DNA of 38,747 nucleotides from a virus. Under the pieces are notes generated by a model. The model made no database searches. It was not told where the DNA came from and saw nothing but the letters and a program-made list of their open reading frames with translations. Numbering within the stretch: the first letter of the stretch is position 1; each line of letters begins with the position of its first letter. Of the stretch, positions 3,234 through 38,179 are shown piece by piece. The stretch covers positions 1 to 38,747 of the IMG/VR virus record IMGVR_UViG_3300042691_001984. One strand, given 5' to 3'. A program made the position numbers and the translations under genes.

Positions 3234-3432
3234 CACTCCGTTCGATGAACCGACATGGGTCTTCCCCTACGCTGGAATGAGTGTGGGGGATAGCTTCTTC
3301 TTGCCAACGATGAAGCCAGCATACATGGCGTACATCATTGACACGACAGCTAAGAAGGCAGGCGTGGTTATGAAAGTGTTTACGACAACCGAGGAAGGTT
3401 TTCTCGGTGTCCGTGCTTGGCGCATGAGCTAG
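3208..3432 (+). CDS. Small conserved phage protein (GDSFF...GVRAWR type)
   Basis: This 74-residue protein begins MSKKPSPNDTPFDEP and contains AGMSVGDSFFLPT and a C-terminal EGFLGVRAWRM. That layout recurs in small phage proteins near replication genes. The function is not known; the compact beta-rich pattern suggests a single small domain. An upstream in-frame start at 3148 lies deep inside the primase gene. The ATG at 3208 is preferred because the protein pattern begins there and the overlap with the primase is only 26 bases. Its TAG stop shares the palindrome CTAG (3429-3432) with the stop of the convergent giant gene. Confidence 0.7.
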   Translation: MSKKPSPNDTPFDEPTWVFPYAGMSVGDSFFLPTMKPAYMAYIIDTTAKKAGVVMKVFTTTEEGFLGVRAWRMS

Positions 3433-6400
3433 GGTTTAATATCTAGTTCTTCAAACACATTTAACAGTTGACGTTTTATAGTGCTTGATATGCCGTTAAT
3501 CTCTTCCAGTTGCAGTTTGCGTTCACGTGGAGTTAACTCACCGTTAGCTCTAACTTGATTTGCTACTGCACGCACTTCACGTAGTTGTCCGTTAACTTGT
3601 TCGTTGTAGAACTCAACAGCAGCATACGCATCTGGATTAGAGTCAAGGTACCTTTCTAGCGCCTCTGGCTTATCTTTCAACGCATTTATGCGCTTATCCA
3701 TTGCCTTAATTTTATCTTCAACTTTGCTAAATTCGCGTGCGTCTACGTTGGACTTAGTGCCAATGAAACTACCAATAAACGGCAAGTCGTGCTTGGGGTC
3801 AAAGTCTTTGTTGCCCGCGACTGTGTAACTTAAGTTAGTAGCCGCTGTACCCATCTTTGCCATACCATCAAAGTAGTTGCTAGCGAAGAAGTACATTGTG
3901 TTTGGACTCCAGTCGATTGCTCCGTCGGTAGCGTCAAATAGCGTACGTGCTGCTAATTTGTATGCTTCAGGAATGCTATCCCCACCTGTATACGCATCAC
4001 CATAACGTGTTTGACGATTGTTGTAAATCTCACGACCCAAACCATCCATGTTCATCACATACTCAAAGAACGGACGGAACGCGGATGGGGTTACCGAATC
4101 CATAGCCCATGCAGGGAAATTTTCTATTGGGCTAATACGTGAGAATGGCAATGGTAAGAATGAATCAAGCCCAACAGTAACAATGTTGGAGAGCGCTTCT
4201 CCAATCGATACACGACCTGAACCCATAGATGCAATCTGTGCCCCAGCCGCAGCAAAAGCGCCAGGTCCGAAGCCCCAAGATATTTGCAATGGTTTCTCAA
4301 AACCAGGAATAAAGATTCTAACGTAACGAGTCCAACGTGCCATGTCATCTGTAGCAACACGGTTGCGACCCTCTTCATCGTCACCAGCCATCATCAACGC
4401 CATCGTATAGAACGCTACGCCAATTCCTGTCATCGTCACCATCATGCGTCTGGCACCATACTGACGCTTCTGCATAATAGCCACGGCTCTCTCGATCTGC
4501 TGTGGGGTACGACCTTCGGCTATCGCTTCTTTACGGAAGTTTTCTTCATTAAAACTAAATGCTGGAGCCAACGCCTCAATAGCGCGTACTGCACCAGTAG
4601 CGGCAGGACGGAAGAACATGAATAGCGCACCAGCCTGCTTGCCCCACTTACCGACCTGCTCAAAGTTAGCAAGGTTCTTTGCATATGTAACTGCACGAAT
4701 TTTTGCATCTTCTTGCGCATCAGCCACGCTCATTTTGTTTGCTAGATTCTCATGGTAGTACTGGTCTTTCAACAATCTATACGCCGCTACACGGCTAGAT
4801 AATTCAAACATATCGTTATAGATATCAATGAACTTATCTATTTGGTCTTTAGTTCTTAGAATGCCAGAGCGTCCAACTTCTTTAATAAGTTGATCTAACG
4901 CACCTTTAGCAGCCACACCCTGCAGATAAGAAACGCGACCACCCTTCTTTACATAATAGTCTAAATCACGGTAGTAACGCTCTTTACTACTCAGGCTTTC
5001 GTAAGGTTTGCCAGCCCCAGCAAGCTTTTCTATTTGATCAAACTTACCTTCGGCATAGAGTTTTGCAAAATTTAATGATCTAGCAAGACCGTTGTTAGCA
5101 ACATCAGATGCCATACCAGTCAGCAACTTACCGCCTGTGATTGGGTCAAACTCAGCGCCAATTATTCCAGCGTTGGTGAATGCATCACGCACAAAGTTCA
5201 TTGGAGCGAAGGCGGGGTTGTAGCGTGTGTGAGTCTGACCAATACCGCTAGTAATCATGTCGGCTCTATCCCATATAGGGTTAGAAGTTCTATAACTACG
5301 CTTGATGGATTGCGCTATTTTGTTATCGTCAATCTGGTAAACGTCAATAGTTCCATCTTTTTTATATAAAAAGATTTTGTTTGTACCTGTAATATCTTTT
5401 TTAGTTGTGCGCCCAGAAAAACGATCGGCGAATGTTATGGTATCAACTTTGTGCCCACGAATAATCTTTGCGTTTATTGCGTTTACGATTGTCTGGGGCG
5501 TATCTTTACGACCAGCGCGTAGGGAAGCAGTTGCACCATCAGCAAGAGATTGCAATACCGGGTTTTCAGATTCAGACTCGCGCCCTTCAAATCTATCTTG
5601 CGCATCTTGATAATCACCGCCAATACGTTTAGTTTCAAAGTTAAATTCTTCGTCAATCGTACGTTGATCTGGTCTACCTTTAAATGGTACGTAATCATTG
5701 AAACCGTAGAAGTCTACGATGTTAGCAACAGGCTCAGACCAATAATTGGCCTCCTTGTTTAGTGCAATAGTCTGTTTATGCACCTTTCTCAATGCGTCTG
5801 ATACAGCATCTATCTCAGCTTTGTTTGCCCTGATATCTAACGTGTTGCGGAATGCTTGAATCTCATTAGGTGAACGACCAGCAATCACGCTGTACATTTC
5901 AGCTTGCTCGTCAAATTCAATCGCTTTTGTAAGCTCACCTTTAGCATTTATTTTTTGATGTGACGAAGGATCAGCTACAACTGTTTCGAGCATCTGCCGT
6001 AACTTTTGAGCGCGGGCAGTGCGTTGTTGATCGCTAAGTCCAGGAGCAGGTTCAGCAAGTATGTCAAGAATTGCTTGCCGTAAACCAGCCGCAGAATAAT
6101 ACTCGTTACCAAGTTGGAATCGTTTATTAGATGGTGTATCGTCAAGCGGCACATCTAGTAAAAACTTGATATGGCGACGCTCTGGCTCATGACGTGCTTG
6201 AAGTATCAGATGCAAGTTAGCTAACGCATCTTTAACAGAAATGTTAAGTTTTTTAGCGTACGCTTCTACAGCAGAATTGACATCGTCCGCAAGCGGTTTC
6301 ATTTGCCTTGCGTATATATCTGTAGCTTTACCAATAGAAAGACTTACTTCGGTGTAAACATCATTTGCTTTTTTACCAATTACATCTACAACACCAAATA

Positions 6401-9400
6401 TACGCCCACGATCAAACACCATTTTTAATGGATGACGGTCACTTTGAAAGTATTCAACTGCAGTATCGTATCCAGCTTTAGAAAATATGTTACGTAACAA
6501 TGATTTAGCGCTACGTTCTTTGATTGATACGATGCCTAAAGCCTTTTGCGTAATCTGCGCATCTGTTTGTGCGGGAGGAGTTGTTGCCTGCTTTGTAGTT
6601 TTAGCTGTACCTTTGGATTGCAGTACTGAACCAAAGCCTCCCTTGCCACCTAACTGTTCAATGCCACCTACAGGCGCAGCAAATAGTTGTTGAATTACAT
6701 CCGCAGCTTCAAGAAGCAAGTTACCCTTGAATCCTGGTTCACGTAATATTTCGCGCTTGAGATTAGTGACACCACCTTTGTCTACAAGATCACCATAGAT
6801 AGGCGCTAGTTCATCACGCCTCTCTTTTTTCTCTTGATCAAATGCGGCTTTGAATTCAGCTGAAGCTTCATCTGGTGACCTAGCGGCTGTGTCTTCATTT
6901 ACTGGTACAACGTCACCGGGTTTTAATCCAGTCGTGCTTTCTTCAACATCTTGCTCATTGAGGTCACCTTTTTTACGAAGCTTTCTGTTTATCTTATCTA
7001 GCGCTTTTATATTTTCTGCTTCAGAGACCGCCTCTTTCTTAGTACCACGCGGTCTGCCCGTCAACTCAGTAGGCATCAAGATCGCTTGTTTTTGCTGTCT
7101 TGGATAGAAGAGACGATACATGTATGCCAACGTACCTGTGAAGTAGTTCCACAAGTTGTCAAGCATGGTGTCATAGCCAGTAATGCTTACTTGGCGTTGT
7201 TCACGCTGAGAGTATGGAGTGCGTTTAACTTGCCCTGTAACAGTTGCTGCACTCTCTACTTGTATCTGCGCTAAATCATGTTGGAAATCTAAGTCAGTCA
7301 TTGCATAAGCAATGAACTCGTAAATATTTTCAAATGCGTTTTTATATTTACTACCCAGTTCAGCTTTAGCTAGGTTAGCTACATTGATTAGATGTTCAAC
7401 TGCCTTGACTGTGCGAGCATCTAGTTTGCTCTTATCAGTGTAGTATTGATGGATAAGTTTTACAGTAGCAGCATGGGTTAATTCATGCAGGACGGTAGCT
7501 TCGTCCATACCGTTAGGACCGAAATAAAACGTATTGCTATTGGCATCATATGTACCAAGATCGTCATAGATCATGTTCTCGTCGTATACGACGTTAACTT
7601 TAAAGTCTTCTATGTTTTGTAATGCGCCCGCCAACAGACGGAAAATCTGGCGCGAGAACATATTGCCAAATTTAGTTTGAGCCTTGACGCCCTTACCTTC
7701 TTCATTAAGGTATTTAAGTACACCAGCTATATCGCCAGATAGTAGTTTCTTGAGAATATTGTCTGGAAGAAGTACGCCTTTACCAGCCGGTTGACCTTTA
7801 CGTGCTCGTTCTGCGGCTACCAGCATCTCTCTGTAAGACTGCTGCTTTGCTTCCTTGATATTTTCTTCAGTCTGCTTATCTAGCAGTTCTTTCTGGATTT
7901 GTTTCTTTATGGCACGAAATGCCATATCCTGCTCCATCGCAGAATTGACATCATTAATTGCTTGATATAAATCTTTGCTTGCTTGCGATAGAGCATTCCA
8001 TGCAGGGAATCTATAAGATAGCCCAGTCTTTCTACCATACGCATCTCTGACGCTCATGTAGTTGTCTTGCGCTACTACTTCTGCAACAGCCGCTGCTTTA
8101 TCAGCATCATTCTGTTCTTTGGTTTGAGTTTCTTTACCAGCAGCACGACTCTCAAACCGTTTATCAGACATGTAATCTGACAAAGCTTGCGCAGCTTTTA
8201 AATGCTCATCGTAACTATTGCGAACAATATGCTCACCAAAATACTTACGTACTTCATCATCGGTCAGGTTGTCAAATATTGGAAGCTCTTGATCTACGCT
8301 ATTAGCCTGCGCTTTTTCAACATTCTTTTTTATAGCTTCAGTAGACCCTAACGCAGCTTTATCTTTTAACGCTTCTTCGGCTTCTCTTCTTGCTGTCTCA
8401 ATAGCGCCGTTGTACTCTTCCACCATATCGTCATACATCTGACGTTGCTCATCCGTGATGGAATTTTTATACAGTGTTGGCTTTTTAAGTTCTTGCTTGG
8501 CTGTTTCCGTTTCTGGAATCTGAGTATCAGGCATCCCTTCGGTTGCTTCAGCTTGACGCTTTATTTCATATTTGCCAGCGTCTTTAATACGTGCGGCATA
8601 CTCACGTTGAGTCTCGTCTTTTTTACGAGTTAATCCGTAGTTTTGACCTATCTCATTTAATTTAGCATCGCGGTCTTCATCTTCCGCGATCTGTGCTTTA
8701 GTACGACGTGCAGTACCTTTAGATGGCAAGCCGTCATCACCAAACAAACTATTGAGTTCATCTAAGTCTTTTTGAACAGACTTTACTTGTGGTCCCGCTG
8801 GTGTCGCTTTTTTCCCAATAGATTCTCTGGCAGCCGCCATCGCTGCTTGGTCGTCATTTAACTTTTGAGCTACTTGTTCTGGTGTTAATTCATTTACTGG
8901 AGTGGGCTGTGCAGTTTCTCCGAGATCAGCGCCTGTAGCATCCTCTCCAGTACGAACCATTCCTGGGGGTTCAGCTCCTCCAAGCCCTCCGGCGGGTGCG
9001 TTTGCACTGGCTGCGCCAGATATGCCAGCGCCTTCTCCACCTGTTTGAGTGATAGGTTGTCCAACATTTTCTTCTCCTGTTGTAGGCGCTTGGGCAAGCG
9101 CGGTACGTGCTGCATCTATCTGCGCCTTTAATTTAAGGTTCTTATTTATCTTGCTTTGAATATGCTGTGGCGCACCGTTCTTAGCTTTTAGTTCTGCAAT
9201 TTCTGCTTCACGTTTGTCGTACTGCTTTTGCTTTTCATCGATGTCAGGATTAGTAGGCAGTGATGTAACCGCGCCAGCAGGAGGTGCTGGGGCTTGAGGG
9301 GGATTAAAACCTTCTGGATGAATCTTAAATTCTTCATCGCCAGTGAATGCAGGGGCAGTCTTAGTACCGGGCGGTGGGGGTGGTGGTTCAACTTGTTCTT

Positions 9401-10484
9401 GTTGCTGAGTCTGATCTTCACCAGTTTGAGTAATAGGTGCTTCTGGCCCTTTACCGAACGCCACATCAGTAGCCGCAGTTATACCTGCGCCACCAAATCC
9501 ACCTTTAAGGCCAGCGTTAATAAAGCGCTCAAAGTTCTTCTCAGAGAAAAACTGCTGATTCTTATCAACAAACTTTTCAGCAGCGGCGGACGATACTTCT
9601 TGTAATGCCTCAGTACCACCTTCAGTGACGAAGCCTTGCGCTGCACCTTTACCAGCACGCTTGTACCATGCGGCTGCAACTTCTTCTGGCTTGAGGCCAG
9701 CCTTACTCATCTTGCGTAACAAGGCGACAGGCGTAATTGCATCTAGTGCAGCATTGAATGAACCAAACGCTAGAGCCGCGCCAAGGTCTTCTTTACCTGT
9801 CGCCTCATAAATGTTTTGATAAACATCAGGGATGTTCTGTGCTGCAGAACCAGTCAATGCACCAGCGGCTTGATATTTAAGCGCAATTTTTTGGGCTTCC
9901 TTCATGCCTACATCTAGTGCGGCTTTCTTGATCCCCTCAATACTTTCTTGCGTAAGAATATTCTTAGCGGCAGCGCGTGCAACTTCTTTAGCTGCAAAGT
10001 CTTGCGCTGCTTTTTCTGCCGCCACAATAGCAGGGCGACCTATCATTGCCGCCGCACCACCAGTAAGAATACTAGGCAGGATGGACGGTATGGCTTCGCC
10101 AATAGATTCCTTGATATACGTTAGCGCTTTGCCAACACTATCAATATCTTTGTATGACGCAACTTCTGCGGGATAAAGTTTTTGAGTTTCTTGTTGATAT
10201 GCAGCAGCTTCCTGCATTTGTTTCTTAGCGTACTCATCAGCGCCAAACGCTTTGCCAATCATGGCTGGAGCAACATCACCCAATAAAGAGGAGATGCCAC
10301 GACCGCCACGCATGACGGACGGAATGAAACCAGTTGCGCCCTTTTCTTCTATTGGAGCGACAACAGGAGCTGGCGCTTCAAAGTAATCTTGCGCCATCGA
10401 ATTAACGAAGTTTTGCGATAAACCTTCAGGCCCTTTGAACTCATGAAGTTTGCCACCAGGTCCTCGGACTTTATACAACGCCAT
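3429..10484 (-). CDS. Giant polyvalent virion protein with HExxH metallopeptidase motif
   Basis: At 2351 residues this is by far the largest protein here. It has the build of a large polyvalent protein that is packaged and ejected with phage DNA. The N-terminal 350 residues are Ala/Gly-rich and helical with weakly hydrophobic stretches, including TEGGTEALQEVSSAAAE near 285. A Pro-rich linker (PPPPPPG) lies near 370, followed by long charged helices. HELTH at 1000-1004, with E1056 in NIYEFIAYAM, matches a gluzincin-type zinc peptidase (HExxH plus downstream Glu). NPAFAPMNFVRDAFTNA near 1756 resembles the LPD38 module common at the end of such proteins. A hydrophobic segment lies near 2012-2028 and charged coils finish the protein. 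An AAAGGG ribosome site precedes the ATG. Peptidase activity and ejection are inferred from family logic. Confidence 0.8.
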   Translation of the reverse strand: MALYKVRGPGGKLHEFKGPEGLSQNFVNSMAQDYFEAPAPVVAPIEEKGATGFIPSVMRGGRGISSLLGDVAPAMIGKAFGADEYAKKQMQEAAAYQQETQKLYPAEVASYKDIDSVGKALTYIKESIGEAIPSILPSILTGGAAAMIGRPAIVAAEKAAQDFAAKEVARAAAKNILTQESIEGIKKAALDVGMKEAQKIALKYQAAGALTGSAAQNIPDVYQNIYEATGKEDLGAALAFGSFNAALDAITPVALLRKMSKAGLKPEEVAAAWYKRAGKGAAQGFVTEGGTEALQEVSSAAAEKFVDKNQQFFSEKNFERFINAGLKGGFGGAGITAATDVAFGKGPEAPITQTGEDQTQQQEQVEPPPPPPGTKTAPAFTGDEEFKIHPEGFNPPQAPAPPAGAVTSLPTNPDIDEKQKQYDKREAEIAELKAKNGAPQHIQSKINKNLKLKAQIDAARTALAQAPTTGEENVGQPITQTGGEGAGISGAASANAPAGGLGGAEPPGMVRTGEDATGADLGETAQPTPVNELTPEQVAQKLNDDQAAMAAARESIGKKATPAGPQVKSVQKDLDELNSLFGDDGLPSKGTARRTKAQIAEDEDRDAKLNEIGQNYGLTRKKDETQREYAARIKDAGKYEIKRQAEATEGMPDTQIPETETAKQELKKPTLYKNSITDEQRQMYDDMVEEYNGAIETARREAEEALKDKAALGSTEAIKKNVEKAQANSVDQELPIFDNLTDDEVRKYFGEHIVRNSYDEHLKAAQALSDYMSDKRFESRAAGKETQTKEQNDADKAAAVAEVVAQDNYMSVRDAYGRKTGLSYRFPAWNALSQASKDLYQAINDVNSAMEQDMAFRAIKKQIQKELLDKQTEENIKEAKQQSYREMLVAAERARKGQPAGKGVLLPDNILKKLLSGDIAGVLKYLNEEGKGVKAQTKFGNMFSRQIFRLLAGALQNIEDFKVNVVYDENMIYDDLGTYDANSNTFYFGPNGMDEATVLHELTHAATVKLIHQYYTDKSKLDARTVKAVEHLINVANLAKAELGSKYKNAFENIYEFIAYAMTDLDFQHDLAQIQVESAATVTGQVKRTPYSQREQRQVSITGYDTMLDNLWNYFTGTLAYMYRLFYPRQQKQAILMPTELTGRPRGTKKEAVSEAENIKALDKINRKLRKKGDLNEQDVEESTTGLKPGDVVPVNEDTAARSPDEASAEFKAAFDQEKKERRDELAPIYGDLVDKGGVTNLKREILREPGFKGNLLLEAADVIQQLFAAPVGGIEQLGGKGGFGSVLQSKGTAKTTKQATTPPAQTDAQITQKALGIVSIKERSAKSLLRNIFSKAGYDTAVEYFQSDRHPLKMVFDRGRIFGVVDVIGKKANDVYTEVSLSIGKATDIYARQMKPLADDVNSAVEAYAKKLNISVKDALANLHLILQARHEPERRHIKFLLDVPLDDTPSNKRFQLGNEYYSAAGLRQAILDILAEPAPGLSDQQRTARAQKLRQMLETVVADPSSHQKINAKGELTKAIEFDEQAEMYSVIAGRSPNEIQAFRNTLDIRANKAEIDAVSDALRKVHKQTIALNKEANYWSEPVANIVDFYGFNDYVPFKGRPDQRTIDEEFNFETKRIGGDYQDAQDRFEGRESESENPVLQSLADGATASLRAGRKDTPQTIVNAINAKIIRGHKVDTITFADRFSGRTTKKDITGTNKIFLYKKDGTIDVYQIDDNKIAQSIKRSYRTSNPIWDRADMITSGIGQTHTRYNPAFAPMNFVRDAFTNAGIIGAEFDPITGGKLLTGMASDVANNGLARSLNFAKLYAEGKFDQIEKLAGAGKPYESLSSKERYYRDLDYYVKKGGRVSYLQGVAAKGALDQLIKEVGRSGILRTKDQIDKFIDIYNDMFELSSRVAAYRLLKDQYYHENLANKMSVADAQEDAKIRAVTYAKNLANFEQVGKWGKQAGALFMFFRPAATGAVRAIEALAPAFSFNEENFRKEAIAEGRTPQQIERAVAIMQKRQYGARRMMVTMTGIGVAFYTMALMMAGDDEEGRNRVATDDMARWTRYVRIFIPGFEKPLQISWGFGPGAFAAAGAQIASMGSGRVSIGEALSNIVTVGLDSFLPLPFSRISPIENFPAWAMDSVTPSAFRPFFEYVMNMDGLGREIYNNRQTRYGDAYTGGDSIPEAYKLAARTLFDATDGAIDWSPNTMYFFASNYFDGMAKMGTAATNLSYTVAGNKDFDPKHDLPFIGSFIGTKSNVDAREFSKVEDKIKAMDKRINALKDKPEALERYLDSNPDAYAAVEFYNEQVNGQLREVRAVANQVRANGELTPRERKLQLEEINGISSTIKRQLLNVFEELDIKP

Positions 10485-23532: not shown

Positions 23533-24549
23533 TTAAGCGACCAACGCCCAAGTTGTACCTTGAGAATTATCAACATTATCCCATGTTGTGGACTGATTGT
23601 CATTGACCAATACCCATGTAGAACTTTGAGCATCGTTGATGATTTGCCAATTTGGACCACCCCTAGTCGGTGCATGTCCAACCAAAGTCAAAACCCCGCA
23701 TGGCGGCGTAATAAGTGTGTTTCTAGACACACTTGGGGCTACCCCAACCAAAGATAACGCAACTCCGTCAGGTTGTACCGCATTAGTCTGAGTGACAGAC
23801 GGGGCATAACCAGCTATGTCTACAGCCCCCACTGCTGGGGTAATTGATACCGCAGTTATTACATCTGGTTGCACACCTGCAACTAAAACTGCCCCGCTAC
23901 TTGGCGTTACGAAGGAATCTTGTCTAACCGTTGGAGCGCTATACGCTAGGGTCAAATTACCGGTGCTCGGTGTGATTATCTTGTTTTCAATCGTTGATGG
24001 GGCGTTGCCAACTAGAGTCAGTGTCGCCGCAGCGGGGGTCATCACCTTGCCCGTAACAACAACGACAGGTACAGAGCCGATTATTTCTGCGCCACCGCTA
24101 GGCGTAAGGACTGTCCCAGTAACAGCCAACGGAGCCGCCCCAGCGATAGTTAAGTTTTGTACCGCAGGTGTGATAACTTTGGCGCTAACAACAGATGGTG
24201 CTACGCCAGTAAGGGTTAATGTCCCCACGCTCGGCGTGATAAATGTTTCTCTAAAGAGTGAGGGAGCTATACCCGTAGCCGTTAATGACCCAACAGTAGG
24301 GGTAATTATTGTTTGGACTATGTCTGTGGGTGCGGCACCAGTAAGCGTTAAAGACCCAACAGTTGGTGTAATAACTTTTGCACTAACAACGGAAGGCGCT
24401 ATGCCTGTAAGTGTCAGCGAGCCAACACTAGGCGTAATGATTGTTTGTCTTAGTAACGAAGGAGCAACGCCTGTAGCAGTCAACGCTCCAACGGATGGCG
24501 TAATAATCGTCTGAACTATGTCTATCGGAGCAGCGCCAGTAAGTGTCAA
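23533..24549 (-). CDS. Repeat tail protein, C-terminal part after an in-frame TGA
   Basis: This is the continuation of the 24580-25500 frame after the TGA at 24580-24582. The only nearby start in frame is a TTG at 24549 without a ribosome site, so separate translation is doubtful. It holds about 14 further 22-residue units (I-T-P-S-V-G-x-L-T-L-T-G-x-A-P-T). They grow more diverged toward the end, followed by three 11-residue units ending in Trp (QSSTW, QSTTW, QGTTW) near 23533-23660. The well-kept frame and the conserved C-terminus argue that the whole 655-codon gene was functional until recently, or is still read through. Confidence 0.5.
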   Translation of the reverse strand: MTLTGAAPIDIVQTIITPSVGALTATGVAPSLLRQTIITPSVGSLTLTGIAPSVVSAKVITPTVGSLTLTGAAPTDIVQTIITPTVGSLTATGIAPSLFRETFITPSVGTLTLTGVAPSVVSAKVITPAVQNLTIAGAAPLAVTGTVLTPSGGAEIIGSVPVVVVTGKVMTPAAATLTLVGNAPSTIENKIITPSTGNLTLAYSAPTVRQDSFVTPSSGAVLVAGVQPDVITAVSITPAVGAVDIAGYAPSVTQTNAVQPDGVALSLVGVAPSVSRNTLITPPCGVLTLVGHAPTRGGPNWQIINDAQSSTWVLVNDNQSTTWDNVDNSQGTTWALVA

Positions 24550-25430
24550 TGCACCTACGCTTGGCGTAATGATGGTCTGTCATAAGAGAGAAGGCGCAGC
24601 ACCTGCGGTAGTTAAAGAGCCAACGCTTGGGGTAATGATGGTCTGAATTACATCTGTTGGGGCCGCGCCCGTAACAGTCAAAGAACCAACGCTTGGGGTA
24701 ATTACTGTCCCCCTAACAACAGTCGGCGCTACGCCCGTAAGAGTCAGCGACCCCACAGACGGCGTTATGACTGGCCCTGTAACAGCAGTTGGCGCTATAC
24801 CTGTAAGAGTCAGTGCCCTAACAGCAGGAGTGATTATTGTCCCTCTAACAACCGTAGGTGCAACACCAGCAACGGTCAGCGAGCCTACGCTTGGGGTAAT
24901 AATTGTCTGAACTATGTCCGTGGGTGCAGCACCAGCAAGCGTTAGTGCTCCTACGCTTGGCGTAATGATGGTTTGAACTATGTCTGTCGGTGCGGCACCT
25001 GTAAGCGTTAACGCCCTAACAGCGGGTGTGATGATTGTCTGAACTATGTCTGTAGGAGCCGCGCCCGCAAGTGTCAGTGAGCCTACGCTTGGGGTGATTA
25101 TTGTTTGAACAATATCGGTCGGGGCTGCGCCGGTAAGCGTTAACGCACCTACGCTCGGCGTGATGATTGTTTGAACTATGTCTGTCGGTGCTACACCAGT
25201 AATAGTCAGCGCCCTAACAGCGGGTGTGATGATTGTCTGAACTATGTCTGTAGGAGCGACACCGGTAATAGTCAGCGCTCTAACAGCCGGTGTGATTATT
25301 GTCTGTACTATGTCCGTGGGTGCGGCACCAGTAATAGTCAACGCCCCAGCAGCGGGCGTAATAATCGTTTGTCTACGTAGGGATGGCGCAACGCCAGTAA
25401 GCGTTAATGCGCCTACTAAAGGCGTTATGT
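23660..25430 (-). repeat. About 27 tandem 66-bp repeats coding 22-residue units
   Basis: The array runs through both parts of the repeat tail protein. Units fall into two main types, S-V-G-x-L-T and A-V-R-A-L-T, mixed along the array. Neighbouring copies near the 5' end of the gene (for example units 3 and 4) are almost identical, while those near the 3' end have drifted, one unit being 21 residues. This gradient points to recent unequal recombination at the 5' end. Confidence 0.85.
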
Positions 25431-25500
25431 TGGTATTTGCAACCGAAGCACCACCAAGCCCCGAAAACGGTGCGCCTGAGAACGGTGCTTGTGAAAACAT
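24580..25500 (-). CDS. Repeat tail protein, N-terminal part ending at an in-frame TGA
   Basis: The protein starts MFSQAPFSGAPFSGLGG, a short opening typical of environmental phage tail proteins. It then consists of 13 tandem 22-residue units of the form I-I-T-P-S-V-G-x-L-T-L-T-G-x-A-P-T-D-I-V-Q-T. The last unit reads APSLL and then TGA, where sister units read APSLLR with CGA. So a single C to T change would create the stop. The next unit continues in the same frame. The repeats should fold as a regular beta array, possibly a beta-solenoid or stacked blades in a tail fibre. If the stop is real, a 306-residue protein is made. Confidence 0.6.
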   Translation of the reverse strand: MFSQAPFSGAPFSGLGGASVANTNITPLVGALTLTGVAPSLRRQTIITPAAGALTITGAAPTDIVQTIITPAVRALTITGVAPTDIVQTIITPAVRALTITGVAPTDIVQTIITPSVGALTLTGAAPTDIVQTIITPSVGSLTLAGAAPTDIVQTIITPAVRALTLTGAAPTDIVQTIITPSVGALTLAGAAPTDIVQTIITPSVGSLTVAGVAPTVVRGTIITPAVRALTLTGIAPTAVTGPVITPSVGSLTLTGVAPTVVRGTVITPSVGSLTVTGAAPTDVIQTIITPSVGSLTTAGAAPSLL

Positions 25501-25562: not shown

Positions 25563-25582
25563 TACCTTATTAGGTTAAGGTA
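25563..25582 (-). other. Stem-loop over the stop codon of the 152-residue tail gene
   Basis: TACCTTA and TAAGGTA pair perfectly (7 bp) around a 6-base loop and span the stop codon at 25570. Together with the next hairpin it fills the 69-base spacer before the repeat tail gene. An RNA processing or mRNA end-protection role is possible; no U-tract is present. Confidence 0.35.
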
Positions 25583-26028
25583 AATATGCCAGTAGCGGCT
25601 GGAAGGATAGTTAACGTGTTTGGTGAAGTAACTGTAAACTGGACGGTAGACAACGCACACCAGCACAATAATTTACCAGCGCCAGCACCAGTAGAGTTAC
25701 GGAGAATCGCATAACGTATGTTAGTTAGAGAAGCGCCAGATGCCGTGAAGGTTAAGCCAATAGTAGACATCGTGAACTTCATCTGTTTTGCAGATGCGCC
25801 AACAGTCCATTGCGCCGTTGCAGGGACAAGGTTACGTCCTCCAGCAACATAACCACCAGTAGCAGAAATCTCCGCCGTAATTTGCGCGTACGTACTAAGC
25901 GTAAATGTTGAAGCATTGCTCGATGTACGAGCTAACACCATCTTCACTACACCCGCACCGAGCGTAATTGTCCCGTTGCCAATGTATCTCTTGGCGTAGT
26001 TGTAAAGTTGCCATGCACTTGTAGCCAT
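25570..26028 (-). CDS. Tail protein, beta-sandwich type
   Basis: The 152-residue product starts MATSAWQLYNYAKRYIGNG, then VVKMVLARTSSNASTFTL, YAQITAEISATGGYVAGG and IRYAILRNSTG. The order (K-M-x-L, A-x-T-L, E-x-x-G-x-G-Y-x-x-G-G, A-x-x-Y/R) is shared with the 27465-27896 protein, so the two look like distant paralogues on either side of the methyltransferase gene. The family is common in short-tailed phages; a tail or spike-base role is likely. Confidence 0.6.
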   Translation of the reverse strand: MATSAWQLYNYAKRYIGNGTITLGAGVVKMVLARTSSNASTFTLSTYAQITAEISATGGYVAGGRNLVPATAQWTVGASAKQMKFTMSTIGLTFTASGASLTNIRYAILRNSTGAGAGKLLCWCALSTVQFTVTSPNTLTILPAATGIFTLT

Positions 26029-26029
26029 G

Positions 26030-27454
26030 TTAAATCTCCTTAATGTCAGCGTATGATGCGCCAGTTTCTAAAATATGGCGGAGAAGCCCACCATACACTT
26101 CCAACTCAATCTCATCGCCCATCATGCGGATAAGGTCGATAAATTCTTGTGCTTGCGAAATCATCCAAGGGTTGCAGTAGAAAATCTTTCCGCCCACATT
26201 TACTGGGGCGACTAGTTGTCCGTCATTTTCCTCTTGTTCATAAGCATGGTGTTTGCCATCTTCTAAACATGAATCGCATCCAAATAGGTGAAATCGCTTG
26301 AACCCTAGCATTCTAAACAAAGGGATCGCTCTAAGCAATACCGTAGAGCCGCCCGGAATGGGGAACCATTTGTCGTATTGTTCCGCAAGAATGTTGTTAA
26401 CCATCTCAGCACTTGTGTGCCAAATGTAAGTACGTTCTTTTGGTAACTTCTCAAACACAGATGGGTCACACTGGGATGCAATGAAATACTTGCAGTCATC
26501 AACGACATTCTCAACAAATCGCTTATTAAAGTCCCTGCCGTCTACCATTACAAAAGCAGAAGGTGTAACGCCGTTATCCAAGCAATATTGGTAGGCATTG
26601 TTGATTGCAACCAACTTAACGCCGTTTGCACGGAGTTCTTTAATCTTGTCCATATTCTCAGCAAGAGACGGCCCGCCTCCCACAATCATTACTTCAACAT
26701 CATTTGTTGGGTAAGGCTGTACTTGCTGAAAGCCCAGAGAAATGTTGTGTTTGACATTCGCTTTAACTTTTTCATCATCCAAGTTGATGACGCCAATATC
26801 TACAATGTCAGCACCAGAAGCCCATGCTGTTACATAGAACAAACAGTATCCATCACGCTCTTCAGACCAATGAATGATGCACTTGCGGTCATTAAACTTC
26901 TGCAACCACCACGAATAGGGTTGTACGGTTAGATGCAACTTATGCCCAACCAACTTACCCATGATGTCGTCTTCTGTGGCAATCTGGAAGAAAACGTGTT
27001 GACAAGCGGCCAAGCAGTTATCTAGCACACGGTCTACATGATGTGGGCGGATATGCTCCATAACATCTGTACAGAACCCATAGGCGGCGGATACTGGTAA
27101 TGGCTGGCTTAAATCTGCTTCCACAAAACGCATAGCGTGGCTTTGTGTTTTAAGCATGGGGACAATGTCTTCATCTAAGCAGTTGTCGGCAAAGTCAACC
27201 ATAGTGACATTTAACCCACCAAAGAACGCTAAATTCAAGGCCCCACGCCCTGTACCACAACCAAGGTCAATAACTGACGCGCCTTTTGGAGGCTTGGCTT
27301 GCGCTAAAAACTCTTGGGCAATCTGCTCTCCGGGGGCTACAACTCTGTATTCTGGACGACTCCACATCATCTTGTATAAATCTTTTTCTAACGGGCGATC
27401 GTTAGTGATTTTTACTTCTGGTGGGTCAGAAAGAACAGAGGAGAAGAAAGTCAT
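26030..27454 (-). CDS. SAM methyltransferase fused to DUF115 (MptE/Maf-like) domain
   Basis: The start at 27454 is chosen because AAGGGA lies 7 bases upstream and the previous stop is 10 bases away; a longer frame to 27550 lies inside the neighbouring gene. Of 474 residues, about 55-215 form a class I methyltransferase with VIDLGCGTG at 61-69, an acidic VD at 86-87 and CTDVMEHI at 128-135. Residues about 252-474 form a DUF115 domain: VMIVGGGPSL at 255-264, INNAYQYCL near 284, VDGRD at 304-308, and GGSTVLLRAIPLFRMLGF with FGCDSC to 396. DUF115 occurs in 6-hydroxymethylpterin pyrophosphokinases (MptE) and in Maf proteins that glycosylate flagellin with nonulosonic acids. In a tail-fibre cluster it may modify a glycan or a virion protein. 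The substrate is unknown. Confidence 0.75.
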   Translation of the reverse strand: MTFFSSVLSDPPEVKITNDRPLEKDLYKMMWSRPEYRVVAPGEQIAQEFLAQAKPPKGASVIDLGCGTGRGALNLAFFGGLNVTMVDFADNCLDEDIVPMLKTQSHAMRFVEADLSQPLPVSAAYGFCTDVMEHIRPHHVDRVLDNCLAACQHVFFQIATEDDIMGKLVGHKLHLTVQPYSWWLQKFNDRKCIIHWSEERDGYCLFYVTAWASGADIVDIGVINLDDEKVKANVKHNISLGFQQVQPYPTNDVEVMIVGGGPSLAENMDKIKELRANGVKLVAINNAYQYCLDNGVTPSAFVMVDGRDFNKRFVENVVDDCKYFIASQCDPSVFEKLPKERTYIWHTSAEMVNNILAEQYDKWFPIPGGSTVLLRAIPLFRMLGFKRFHLFGCDSCLEDGKHHAYEQEENDGQLVAPVNVGGKIFYCNPWMISQAQEFIDLIRMMGDEIELEVYGGLLRHILETGASYADIKEI

Positions 27455-27464
27455 GCGTTCCCTT

Positions 27465-27896
27465 TTAAGAAATACGAATAATCGCAGATGTATCAGTGAC
27501 TGCGGGGAATTGTACGGTAAATGTGGTAGTGCTGGTCTTATCCGCACCAAAATCTAACACACAAACTGCCCCATCAGCACCGGTTTTATAAATCAAAGCG
27601 CCCCTTGCGGTGATAGCTCCAGACCATGAGGCGTTGCTGAACGATATGTACGAGGTAGCCGCGCCAGTCTGATTGCCCGTAGTTGGGGCCTGCGATATGG
27701 TCAAAAGATTTCCACCGGGCGTATAGCCTGTAGCCACCACTTCACCAGTTGTTCCTGTGTAAGTAGTGGTAGTTGCATCAAGCGTTGCCGCGTTGGTGTA
27801 CAAAGCGATATAGAACGTGCCACTTGTAAAGTCAAACGAGCCATTCATCAAGCCCGTCTTAAACGTATTGCATGTCCAATTTCCTGTAAAAGCCAT
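27465..27896 (-). CDS. Tail protein, beta-sandwich type
   Basis: The 143-residue protein begins MAFTGNWTCNTFKTGLMNG and has FYIALYTNAATLDATTTTY, GEVVATGYTPGG, ARGALIYKTGADGAVCVL and DFGADK. It ends VQFPAVTDTSAIIRI. The ALYT-A-x-L...GTGY-x-x-GG...ALIY...DFG order is that of a widespread small phage tail or spike protein. The 25570-26028 protein shows the same pattern. It is the first gene after the adaptor in the tail module and directly precedes the methyltransferase-DUF115 gene. Confidence 0.65.
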   Translation of the reverse strand: MAFTGNWTCNTFKTGLMNGSFDFTSGTFYIALYTNAATLDATTTTYTGTTGEVVATGYTPGGNLLTISQAPTTGNQTGAATSYISFSNASWSGAITARGALIYKTGADGAVCVLDFGADKTSTTTFTVQFPAVTDTSAIIRIS

Positions 27897-27897
27897 C

Positions 27898-28818
27898 TCA
27901 GGTCACCGCCTGTCTATATTGACCAGAACGATACGCATCCTGACGCTCCATACCGTCGCCAAGGCGTTTAGCAAGTGCTAGTGCTTCCTTGTACTTACCA
28001 TCATATAGAGCCATCATATCCTGTTCGCCTTTTAGATATGTGTACGCCTCAACCAATGAGCCATAGAGTAAGACACTATCAAAGTTATCCCCCAGCCAAG
28101 TCTGCCCTGTGCTGTTAGAAACTGAATATACCGTACCAGTAAAAGTAGTGCCCGTGCCGCCGATATTTGCCACAGCCGCGCTTATGGCATCGCCAACCAC
28201 ATAGGATGAGCCACCCTGCGTAATAGTTACAGTGGTCACGAAACCACCAGATACCACAATAGTGGCTAACGCACTGCTACCAGAACCACCAGTCAACGGC
28301 ACGTTGTAATAAGTTCCAGCCGTCAAACTACCACCCGGAGTTACGAGCGATACCAAGGTGATCACACCTTGAACAATGGTTGCTGGATAGTAGTAATAGT
28401 GCAGTTCTACGTCATATGCGGCATTTGGAGTCGGCCCAAGAATGAAAGACAACTCATTAGTGATTTCGCCCCCACTAATAGTTGGGCCAAACAATCCGTA
28501 GTACTTAGGAGCGCCCACGTCGGTAGTTGGGTTTGGGTACGCCTGACGTATGAAGTTCACATCTTTGTTTAGCAGGTACTCGTAGTTACCGCTGGCGTCA
28601 ATCACAGCCATTGAATAGGTAGCTAGATAGTCGTTTGGGGCTGACAAATACGGGCTTGCAGAAGTCAAAGTACCTGTTACGTTTTTGCGTAACGATGGAA
28701 ACTGAACCGTGTTGTAAATGCGCTGCTCTGCCTGCGTAATGAACGTATTCATATCCGCAACGTCAAAAGTATTCTCCGTGTAATCGGAGATCGCAGTTAC
28801 AAGCTGGCTGTAGTTCAT
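27898..28818 (-). CDS. Tail adaptor / tubular-like protein with inserted beta module
   Basis: Residues 1-155 and 225-306 form a helical and beta fold with NTFITQAEQRIYNTVQFPSL, LNKDVNFIRQAYPNP, VELHYYYYPATI, then LLYGSLVEAYTYLKGEQDMM and YDGKYKEALALAKRLGDG. This matches podovirus adaptor or tail tubular proteins (T7 gp11, P22 gp4 like). Residues about 158-224 are a Gly/Thr-rich insert (GGSLTAGTYYNVPLTGGSG ... GGSSYVVGD) absent from the core pattern. It likely sits at the portal-tail joint. Its start overlaps the stop of the previous gene as ATGA. Confidence 0.65.
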   Translation of the reverse strand: MNYSQLVTAISDYTENTFDVADMNTFITQAEQRIYNTVQFPSLRKNVTGTLTSASPYLSAPNDYLATYSMAVIDASGNYEYLLNKDVNFIRQAYPNPTTDVGAPKYYGLFGPTISGGEITNELSFILGPTPNAAYDVELHYYYYPATIVQGVITLVSLVTPGGSLTAGTYYNVPLTGGSGSSALATIVVSGGFVTTVTITQGGSSYVVGDAISAAVANIGGTGTTFTGTVYSVSNSTGQTWLGDNFDSVLLYGSLVEAYTYLKGEQDMMALYDGKYKEALALAKRLGDGMERQDAYRSGQYRQAVT

Positions 28819-37581: not shown

Positions 37582-37992
37582 TTAAGCAGCGCGACTAATT
37601 CCGCGTGGGTCTTCAACAATGGCCTCGACTGAGGTATCCGCAATGATGCGAAACTCACGACCGTGAATCTTCAGGCGGGTGCCTGAATTGGGGCGGACGA
37701 CAACGAAGTCGCCAACTTTGCAGCTAGAACCACTTGGAAAGCGGGTAGCGTCTTTGTAACAGTCAGGTCCCATCTTCACTACAAACAATACTGGGGTCAG
37801 CACTTCTTCGTAGTACATGGTTTTGCTGTCTTTAATCAATCCAACCTCACTATCAGCATATTCTTCTATCGCTTCAGGAACGACAGTCAACATGTAATAG
37901 GTAGATGGATCGGGCAACTGTTTAGCCTTGTCTTCGTTACTAGCATTCAAAATGCCGGACAAGTCCACAGCGGAAACATCAAACTCACTCAT
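37582..37992 (-). CDS. GroES-like co-chaperonin
   Basis: The start at 37992 (MSEFDVSAVDLSG) has GGAG 7 bases upstream and overlaps the previous stop by 8 bases (ATGAGTGA); the frame to 38040 has no support. Of 136 residues, the core reads VLFVVKMGPDCYKDATRF, CKVGDFVVVRPNSGTRLKI, GREFRIIADTSVEAIVEDP. This parallels the GroES fold (VGD-x-V...G...L-x-x-x-D-x-x-A-I-V-E). Such proteins could work with host GroEL to fold the capsid protein, as T4 gp31 does. The mobile loop is not obvious in the sequence, so partner binding is not certain. Confidence 0.6.
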   Translation of the reverse strand: MSEFDVSAVDLSGILNASNEDKAKQLPDPSTYYMLTVVPEAIEEYADSEVGLIKDSKTMYYEEVLTPVLFVVKMGPDCYKDATRFPSGSSCKVGDFVVVRPNSGTRLKIHGREFRIIADTSVEAIVEDPRGISRAA

Positions 37993-38179
37993 CGGAATAC
38001 TCCATTTTTTGCACAAGGTCTTTGACAAGTTGTTCTGCATGTGTCAGACCCCGGATGACACCGCAGACATGCCGATACTCGGCGAAATCTTTTGCACCTC
38101 CTCCTGCGAGGAAGGTAACTTGATCACGACGGAGCTTGTCAATCTCCGAAGCTAAATAACCAAATGTTTGGTTGCTCAT
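37985..38179 (-). CDS. Small conserved head-module protein
   Basis: The 64-residue protein is helical: MSNQTFGYLASEIDKLRRD, then FLAGGGAKDFAEYRHVCG and VIRGLTHAEQLVKDLVQKM. The order AKDF-x-EYR-x-x-CG-x-I-x-GL occurs in small proteins between portal and scaffold genes. No catalytic site is evident. Its start overlaps the portal stop as ATGA. Confidence 0.65.
   Translation of the reverse strand: MSNQTFGYLASEIDKLRRDQVTFLAGGGAKDFAEYRHVCGVIRGLTHAEQLVKDLVQKMEYSDE

Follow-up and report, generated by a model that had tools for sequence, protein, structure and literature searches.

A Maf-like methyltransferase-DUF115 fusion protein and its partner gene in freshwater phages: a candidate virion-modifying enzyme

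Why should a phage keep, within its virion genes, one protein that joins a methyltransferase to a DUF115 domain, and what would such a protein modify? The question is raised by a gene of a freshwater phage known from a 38.7-kb virus record, all 38,747 nucleotides of which are hereafter called the window. The initial annotation had read this gene as a fusion lying amid tail-fibre genes, and had proposed that its product either alters a host glycan or decorates a tail protein.

The major capsid protein of the window is 70.7% identical to that of Planktothrix phage Pag-Yong1, and about 63-65% identical to those of pelagiphages HTVC023P and HTVC027P and of lake phage DSL-LC04. Relatives that bear the fusion gene reach up to 55-70 kb. 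A GroES-like co-chaperonin gene (37582-38040, minus strand) lies upstream of the capsid gene, and Pag-Yong1 has one similarly placed. Three GenBank phage records with the same capsid match, OQ594354, OL906435 and PP438419, are all 65,014 bp long. The hosts given for them differ (Synechococcus sp., Planktothrix agardhii and Planktothricoides raciborskii), and a single phage may have been deposited three times.

Domains and fold of the fused protein

The fusion gene and its two halves are located as follows.

26030-27454, minus strand: MTD, the methyltransferase-DUF115 fusion protein, 474 aa (ORF, Pfam and structure searches)
26812-27454, minus strand: class I SAM-dependent methyltransferase half, about residues 1-214 (Pfam Methyltransf_25, Methyltransf_23 and Methyltransf_11, VIA, invariant motif)
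26030-26809, minus strand: DUF115/PF01973 half, Maf-like, residues 216-474 (PF01973 profile; 5MU5 by profile and by structure)

The coordinates agree with those of the initial annotation, which gave no strand. The minus-strand frame runs uninterrupted from an ATG at 27454, upstream of which stands AAGGGA, a fair ribosome-binding sequence, and the plus-strand frame is filled with stops. Profile searches of each half, which the initial annotation had advised, bore out the fusion. PF01973 (DUF115, MptE-like/MAF_flag10) matched residues 232-399 at 87.9 bits (E 8.5e-25, curated cut-off 34.6), and residues 47-191 matched Methyltransf_25 at 31.3 bits (cut-off 27), Methyltransf_23 at 29.8 bits (cut-off 27) and Methyltransf_11 at 23.2 bits (cut-off 21.2). 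The motifs also stand where they had been placed, VIDLGCGTG at residues 61-69, VMIVGGGPSL at 255-264 and VDGRD at 304-308. The first is part of VIDLGCGTGRG, a glycine-rich SAM motif which, with the profile scores, assigns this half to the class I SAM methyltransferases, and an acidic VDF is found at 86-88. The DUF115 half contains GGGPSL, VD(G/A)R, PGGSTVLLR, FGCDSC and HHAY. PADLOC returned a weak methyltransferase match only (mad2, 22.5 bits over residues 33-120).

At least 193 IMG/VR loci hold relatives of MTD. The best 80 are 76-100% identical to it and nearly all full length, and both halves were matched in a single frame in every one of these 80, so that the fusion is not an assembly artefact. 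In one relative (L044, 4887-6311) codon 112, which specifies glutamate in the others, reads TAG in frame, either a true nonsense change or a sequencing error; the MTD stretch of L074 has one stop inside. Against GenBank phages and plasmids, tblastn of MTD gave matches to the methyltransferase half only. In two pattern scans, 84,980 genomes of bacteria and archaea gave no relative of either the fused protein or the DUF115 half; such scans need exact short peptides, so it does not follow that bacteria lack relatives of MTD.

The structure of MTD was modelled with AlphaFold from 18 close sequences (pLDDT 71, moderate). Among solved structures, Foldseek matched the model best to 5MU5, a flagellin glycosyltransferase of the Maf type (E 4e-10). 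VIA aligned residues 33-460 of the model to 41-498 of the 5MU5 chain, with a Z of 20.6 over 308 residues; many SAM methyltransferases gave values of about 16-17.6, and no methyltransferase-only structure exceeded 17.6. A Rossmann N-terminal domain thus precedes a central PF01973 domain in the model as in Maf, and the rmsd of 12.6 A indicates that the two halves are placed differently relative to each other. The profile of the DUF115 half also matched 5MU5 (E 4.6e-4 over 175 residues, with GxGPS, the GxD region and the HH pair aligned), and matched the MptE structure 8SD5 more weakly and over a shorter length (E 0.012 over 51 residues), so that Maf is the closer of these two solved PF01973 relatives. 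The C-terminal helical flagellin/chaperone-like domain of Maf has no counterpart in MTD, which ends about 75 residues past PF01973 (474 aa, versus 666 aa for the 5MU5 chain). The full-length NCBIfam family FlagModPseD scored 21 bits, its cut-off being 670.

A partner gene and the exchange of the cassette

The virion genes run in the order capsid, SU10-like adaptors, p644a, MTD, p644b, then repeat-rich fibre-like genes. The features needed here are listed below.

27898-28818, minus strand: SU10-adaptor-like protein, a backbone virion gene (PF24175, 69 bits)
27465-27896, minus strand: p644a, the upstream PHROG-644 paralogue, a backbone gene with or without the cassette
25570-26028, minus strand: p644b, a 152-aa PHROG-644 protein, the obligate partner gene of MTD
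25570-27464, minus strand: exchange unit, MTD plus p644b (limits of DNA similarity in L005/L007 and L013/L014)
L092:6764-7453, L119:11967-12727 and L128:11943-12653: the site after p644a in examples without MTD

The earlier placement amid tail-fibre genes was therefore roughly right: MTD stands between two PHROG-644 genes, with SU10-type adaptors upstream and fibre-like genes downstream. Two genes (24580-25500 and 23533-24549, minus strand) are made of many near-identical units like TPSVGSLTLTGVAPT, and their length and copy number vary widely among relatives. Elsewhere in the window, a 2351-aa protein (3429-10484, minus strand) weakly matches the virion structural family phrog_6958, and also, over residues 682-1087, the virion RNA polymerase family phrog_2206 (weak, E 7.5e-10).

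In the window the ATG of p644b comes 1 nt after the MTD stop (1-4 nt across loci), and its Shine-Dalgarno sequence lies within the last codons of MTD. Among the best 80 MTD loci, p644b was the next gene in all 77 whose contig extends that far. Starting from p644b and reading outward, MTD was found directly before it in 79/79 loci with upstream sequence, and within a set of 43 longer records the nine with MTD all had p644b. The other 34 of the 43, relatives drawn from the adaptor matches listed, had no MTD; PF01973 was found nowhere in these records, and p644b was absent from them, save for one PHROG-644 paralogue at 35%. These are sampled adaptor relatives whose records may be fragments, and the frequencies of MTD and p644b are thus no estimates of prevalence. 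By gene order, MTD and p644b form a strict cassette, and this is our main new finding.

The p644b model, built from 35 sequences, has a pLDDT of 50. PHROG-644-like relatives of p644b in mycobacteriophages close the minor tail gene run, and one of them is annotated as a minor tail protein; from this gene position we infer a virion role for p644b.

The cassette has sharp borders. DNA similarity of the window to L005 and L007 begins at 27464 and 27467, just before the MTD start codon, and similarity to L013 and L014 stops at 25571, the end of p644b. In L004, MTD and p644b are each 98% identical to those of the window, but p644a is only 51% and the adaptor 59% identical. Over 33 loci, pairwise identity averaged 86-88% for p644b and for each half of MTD, versus 70-76% for p644a, the adaptors and a zinc-ribbon-like gene, and the lowest pairwise identities were above 73-80% for the cassette genes and down to 39-53% for the neighbours; as the loci were chosen by MTD similarity, the value and floor of MTD itself are biased, those of p644b not directly. 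On these comparisons, MTD and p644b travel as a unit between divergent phage backbones. In relatives without MTD, the site after p644a often holds an ORF of 64-69 aa with another PHROG-644 paralogue, or else an ORF of 173-193 aa with one of 58-59 aa, and this variety of small gene sets marks the site as an exchange hotspot.

Joint travel need not mean joint function. The linkage could reflect co-regulation or co-transfer instead of a relation between enzyme and substrate, and at a hypervariable site where relatives without MTD carry different gene sets, MTD and p644b might be functionally unrelated cargo exchanged together, with MTD modifying something else. We regard the unrelated-cargo explanation as rather unlikely: p644b never occurred without MTD in the 79 loci, whereas free variation is seen in p644a before the cassette and in the repeat gene after it, and the identity floor of the cassette genes, with the sampling bias stated for MTD, stands well above that of their neighbours. 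Apart from the acceptor, this explanation is compatible with the Maf-like modification proposed below.

What the enzyme may modify

We lean, with no great confidence, towards taking MTD as a sugar-transferring, Maf-like phage enzyme that modifies a virion protein. During infection the DUF115 half would transfer an activated sugar, probably host-made, to a virion protein; by analogy with Maf, the donor could be of the CMP-nonulosonate type. Neither CMP-nonulosonate synthetase (PF02348) nor NeuB (PF03102) was found in 13 MTD phage records, so that a donor of this type would have to be supplied by the host. The methyltransferase half would use SAM to methylate the same virion target or the attached sugar, the order of the two steps being part of the proposal. 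The likeliest acceptor or assembly partner would be p644b, which is adjacent and co-inherited and may be present in the particle. That p644b actually accepts a methylated glycan is a tentative extension. So is, to the same degree, the idea of a mobile cassette of enzyme and substrate, in which a relative of Maf whose methyltransferase half is active moves together with p644b, its dedicated acceptor, and installs such a glycan; a phage would then change its surface chemistry by swapping a single two-gene unit.

Methyltransferases of other phages bear on this proposal. Siphophage MW202621 and four IMG/VR records encode a homologue of the N-terminal half of MTD (43% identity, hhalign E 1e-27). 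In this siphophage group, unrelated to the window phage, the gene comes immediately after that of the major capsid protein, which is annotated as such in MW202621 and recognized by the same upstream protein in the other records read. A more distant relative, 28% identical in the case of MW202512, adjoins a glycosyltransferase family 8 (GT8) gene in MW202512, L172 and L173. Related methyltransferases thus recur next to genes for sugar transfer and, in several phages, next to capsid genes, and this is the main support that gene context gives to virion modification.

The gene that follows the MW202621-type methyltransferase gave a PF01973 match of 18 bits, under the cut-off, with 34% probability in profile comparison. 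It was not retained as a clear homologue, and its relationship to the DUF115 half of MTD is suggestive.

Of the two roles first proposed, decoration of a virion or tail protein is thus strengthened by the best structural match to Maf, the co-inheritance of p644b and the methyltransferase relatives beside capsid and GT8 genes, and nothing specific was gained for alteration of a host glycan. With a partner gene that is obligate and an architecture like that of Maf, the case is somewhat stronger than could be judged at the time of the initial annotation.

Phage enzymes that modify glycans are known in general, which counts for the role on the host side, namely that MTD modifies a surface glycan (LPS, capsule or flagellin), for instance blocking superinfection or aiding progeny release. 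DUF115/Maf enzymes, moreover, act on host flagellin (PMC11339370). MTD, however, lies inside the virion run and is strictly tied to a small virion-type gene of PHROG 644, not to genes for membrane proteins or flippases, and its methyltransferase relative directly follows a capsid gene in another phage group, so that we hold a host target to be improbable.

Are both halves of the putative virion-modifying enzyme at work? The SAM-motif residues D63, G65, C66, G67, T68 and G69, with D87, are invariant in 18/18 aligned MTD sequences, as are GGGP (259-262), D305, G392, D394 and H402-H403 of the DUF115 half. Against near relatives, dN/dS was 0.02-0.03 for the methyltransferase half and mostly 0.04-0.08 for the DUF115 half, reaching 0.2 for the latter in the closest pair, where changes are very few. 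Both halves are thus under strong purifying selection and are therefore kept as functional protein. Homologues whose halves are never active and only structural would have spoken against the initial annotation; the invariant motifs and the dN/dS values, mostly 0.02-0.08, point the other way. The methyltransferase alone might still be catalytic on a virion protein, with the DUF115 half serving as a substrate-binding module that lost, or never had, transferase activity. The textbook motifs of the methyltransferase half and its somewhat lower dN/dS fit such a division, as does the loss of GGGPSL in two of four members of the separate DUF115-like gene (GGSHCL, GGGANL) that follows the MW202621-type methyltransferase. 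A pure scaffold, however, need not keep the residues found invariant in the DUF115 half, and we give this division of labour little credence. It is very unlikely that MTD is a pterin or other small-molecule enzyme, with a DUF115 half that works as a 6-hydroxymethylpterin pyrophosphokinase of the MptE kind and a methyltransferase acting on the product: PF01973 is named after MptE and includes pterin pyrophosphokinases, and 8SD5 was matched, but the Maf match is longer and stronger, 5MU5 ranks first among solved structures, and MTD shares its cassette with a small virion-type protein.

If modification of a virion protein by MTD is correct, an abundant and mostly uncultured group of freshwater phages would possess a compact two-gene system for it, with a probable substrate named. 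MTD would also exemplify a Maf-type architecture in which the methyltransferase-like N-terminal domain has its SAM motif complete, and would point to a function for PHROG 644 as well as for the phage "MptE-like" proteins annotated by domain name only.

Comparison with known systems

MptE, the 6-hydroxymethyl-7,8-dihydropterin pyrophosphokinase (8SD5), has PF01973 in common with MTD; it has no methyltransferase half, its match is the weaker and shorter one, and its gene context differs. Phage DUF115 proteins are also found in BFVD, as "MptE-like" proteins of uncultured Caudovirales phages (for instance A0A6J7XC21, A0A6J5PVH5 and A0A6J7X5Q0). Two such proteins align with the MTD model over about 250 columns, at 31-32% identity and an rmsd of 2.1-2.6 A, and others over about 500 columns; the closest are larger than MTD (540-714 aa) and annotated by domain name only, their descriptions naming neither a function nor a partner gene. 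In the literature searched, we found no paper giving a function to any phage DUF115 protein.

Maf glycosylates Ser/Thr of flagellin. It has been described as having a degenerate Rossmann fold at the N-terminus, weakly similar to methyltransferase motifs, a central domain that resembles the sialyltransferase Cst-II, and at the C-terminus a domain with weak resemblance to flagellins and their chaperones (PMC11339370, where strain EV136 served for Maf sialylation). MTD and Maf (5MU5) share the central PF01973, the preceding Rossmann/methyltransferase-like domain and the aligned GxGPS and HH. In contrast to Maf, MTD is phage-borne, and its partner gene is p644b, not flagellin. As modelled, it resembles a Maf with an intact SAM motif in place of the degenerate one, and without the C-terminal helical domain.

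In mycobacteriophages, glycosyltransferases and an O-methyltransferase modify the capsid and tail tube, as described in PMC11600133, citing Freeman et al. 2023. By that description, the mycobacteriophage virion glycosylation genes and MTD both pair phage sugar transfer with a methyltransferase, the targets there being capsid and tail; the comparison is one of descriptions, not of sequences. The genes are separate there, as described, and here a single fused Maf-like protein is found. MTD is thus a variant of phage protein-modifying enzymes, and not a new kind of system.
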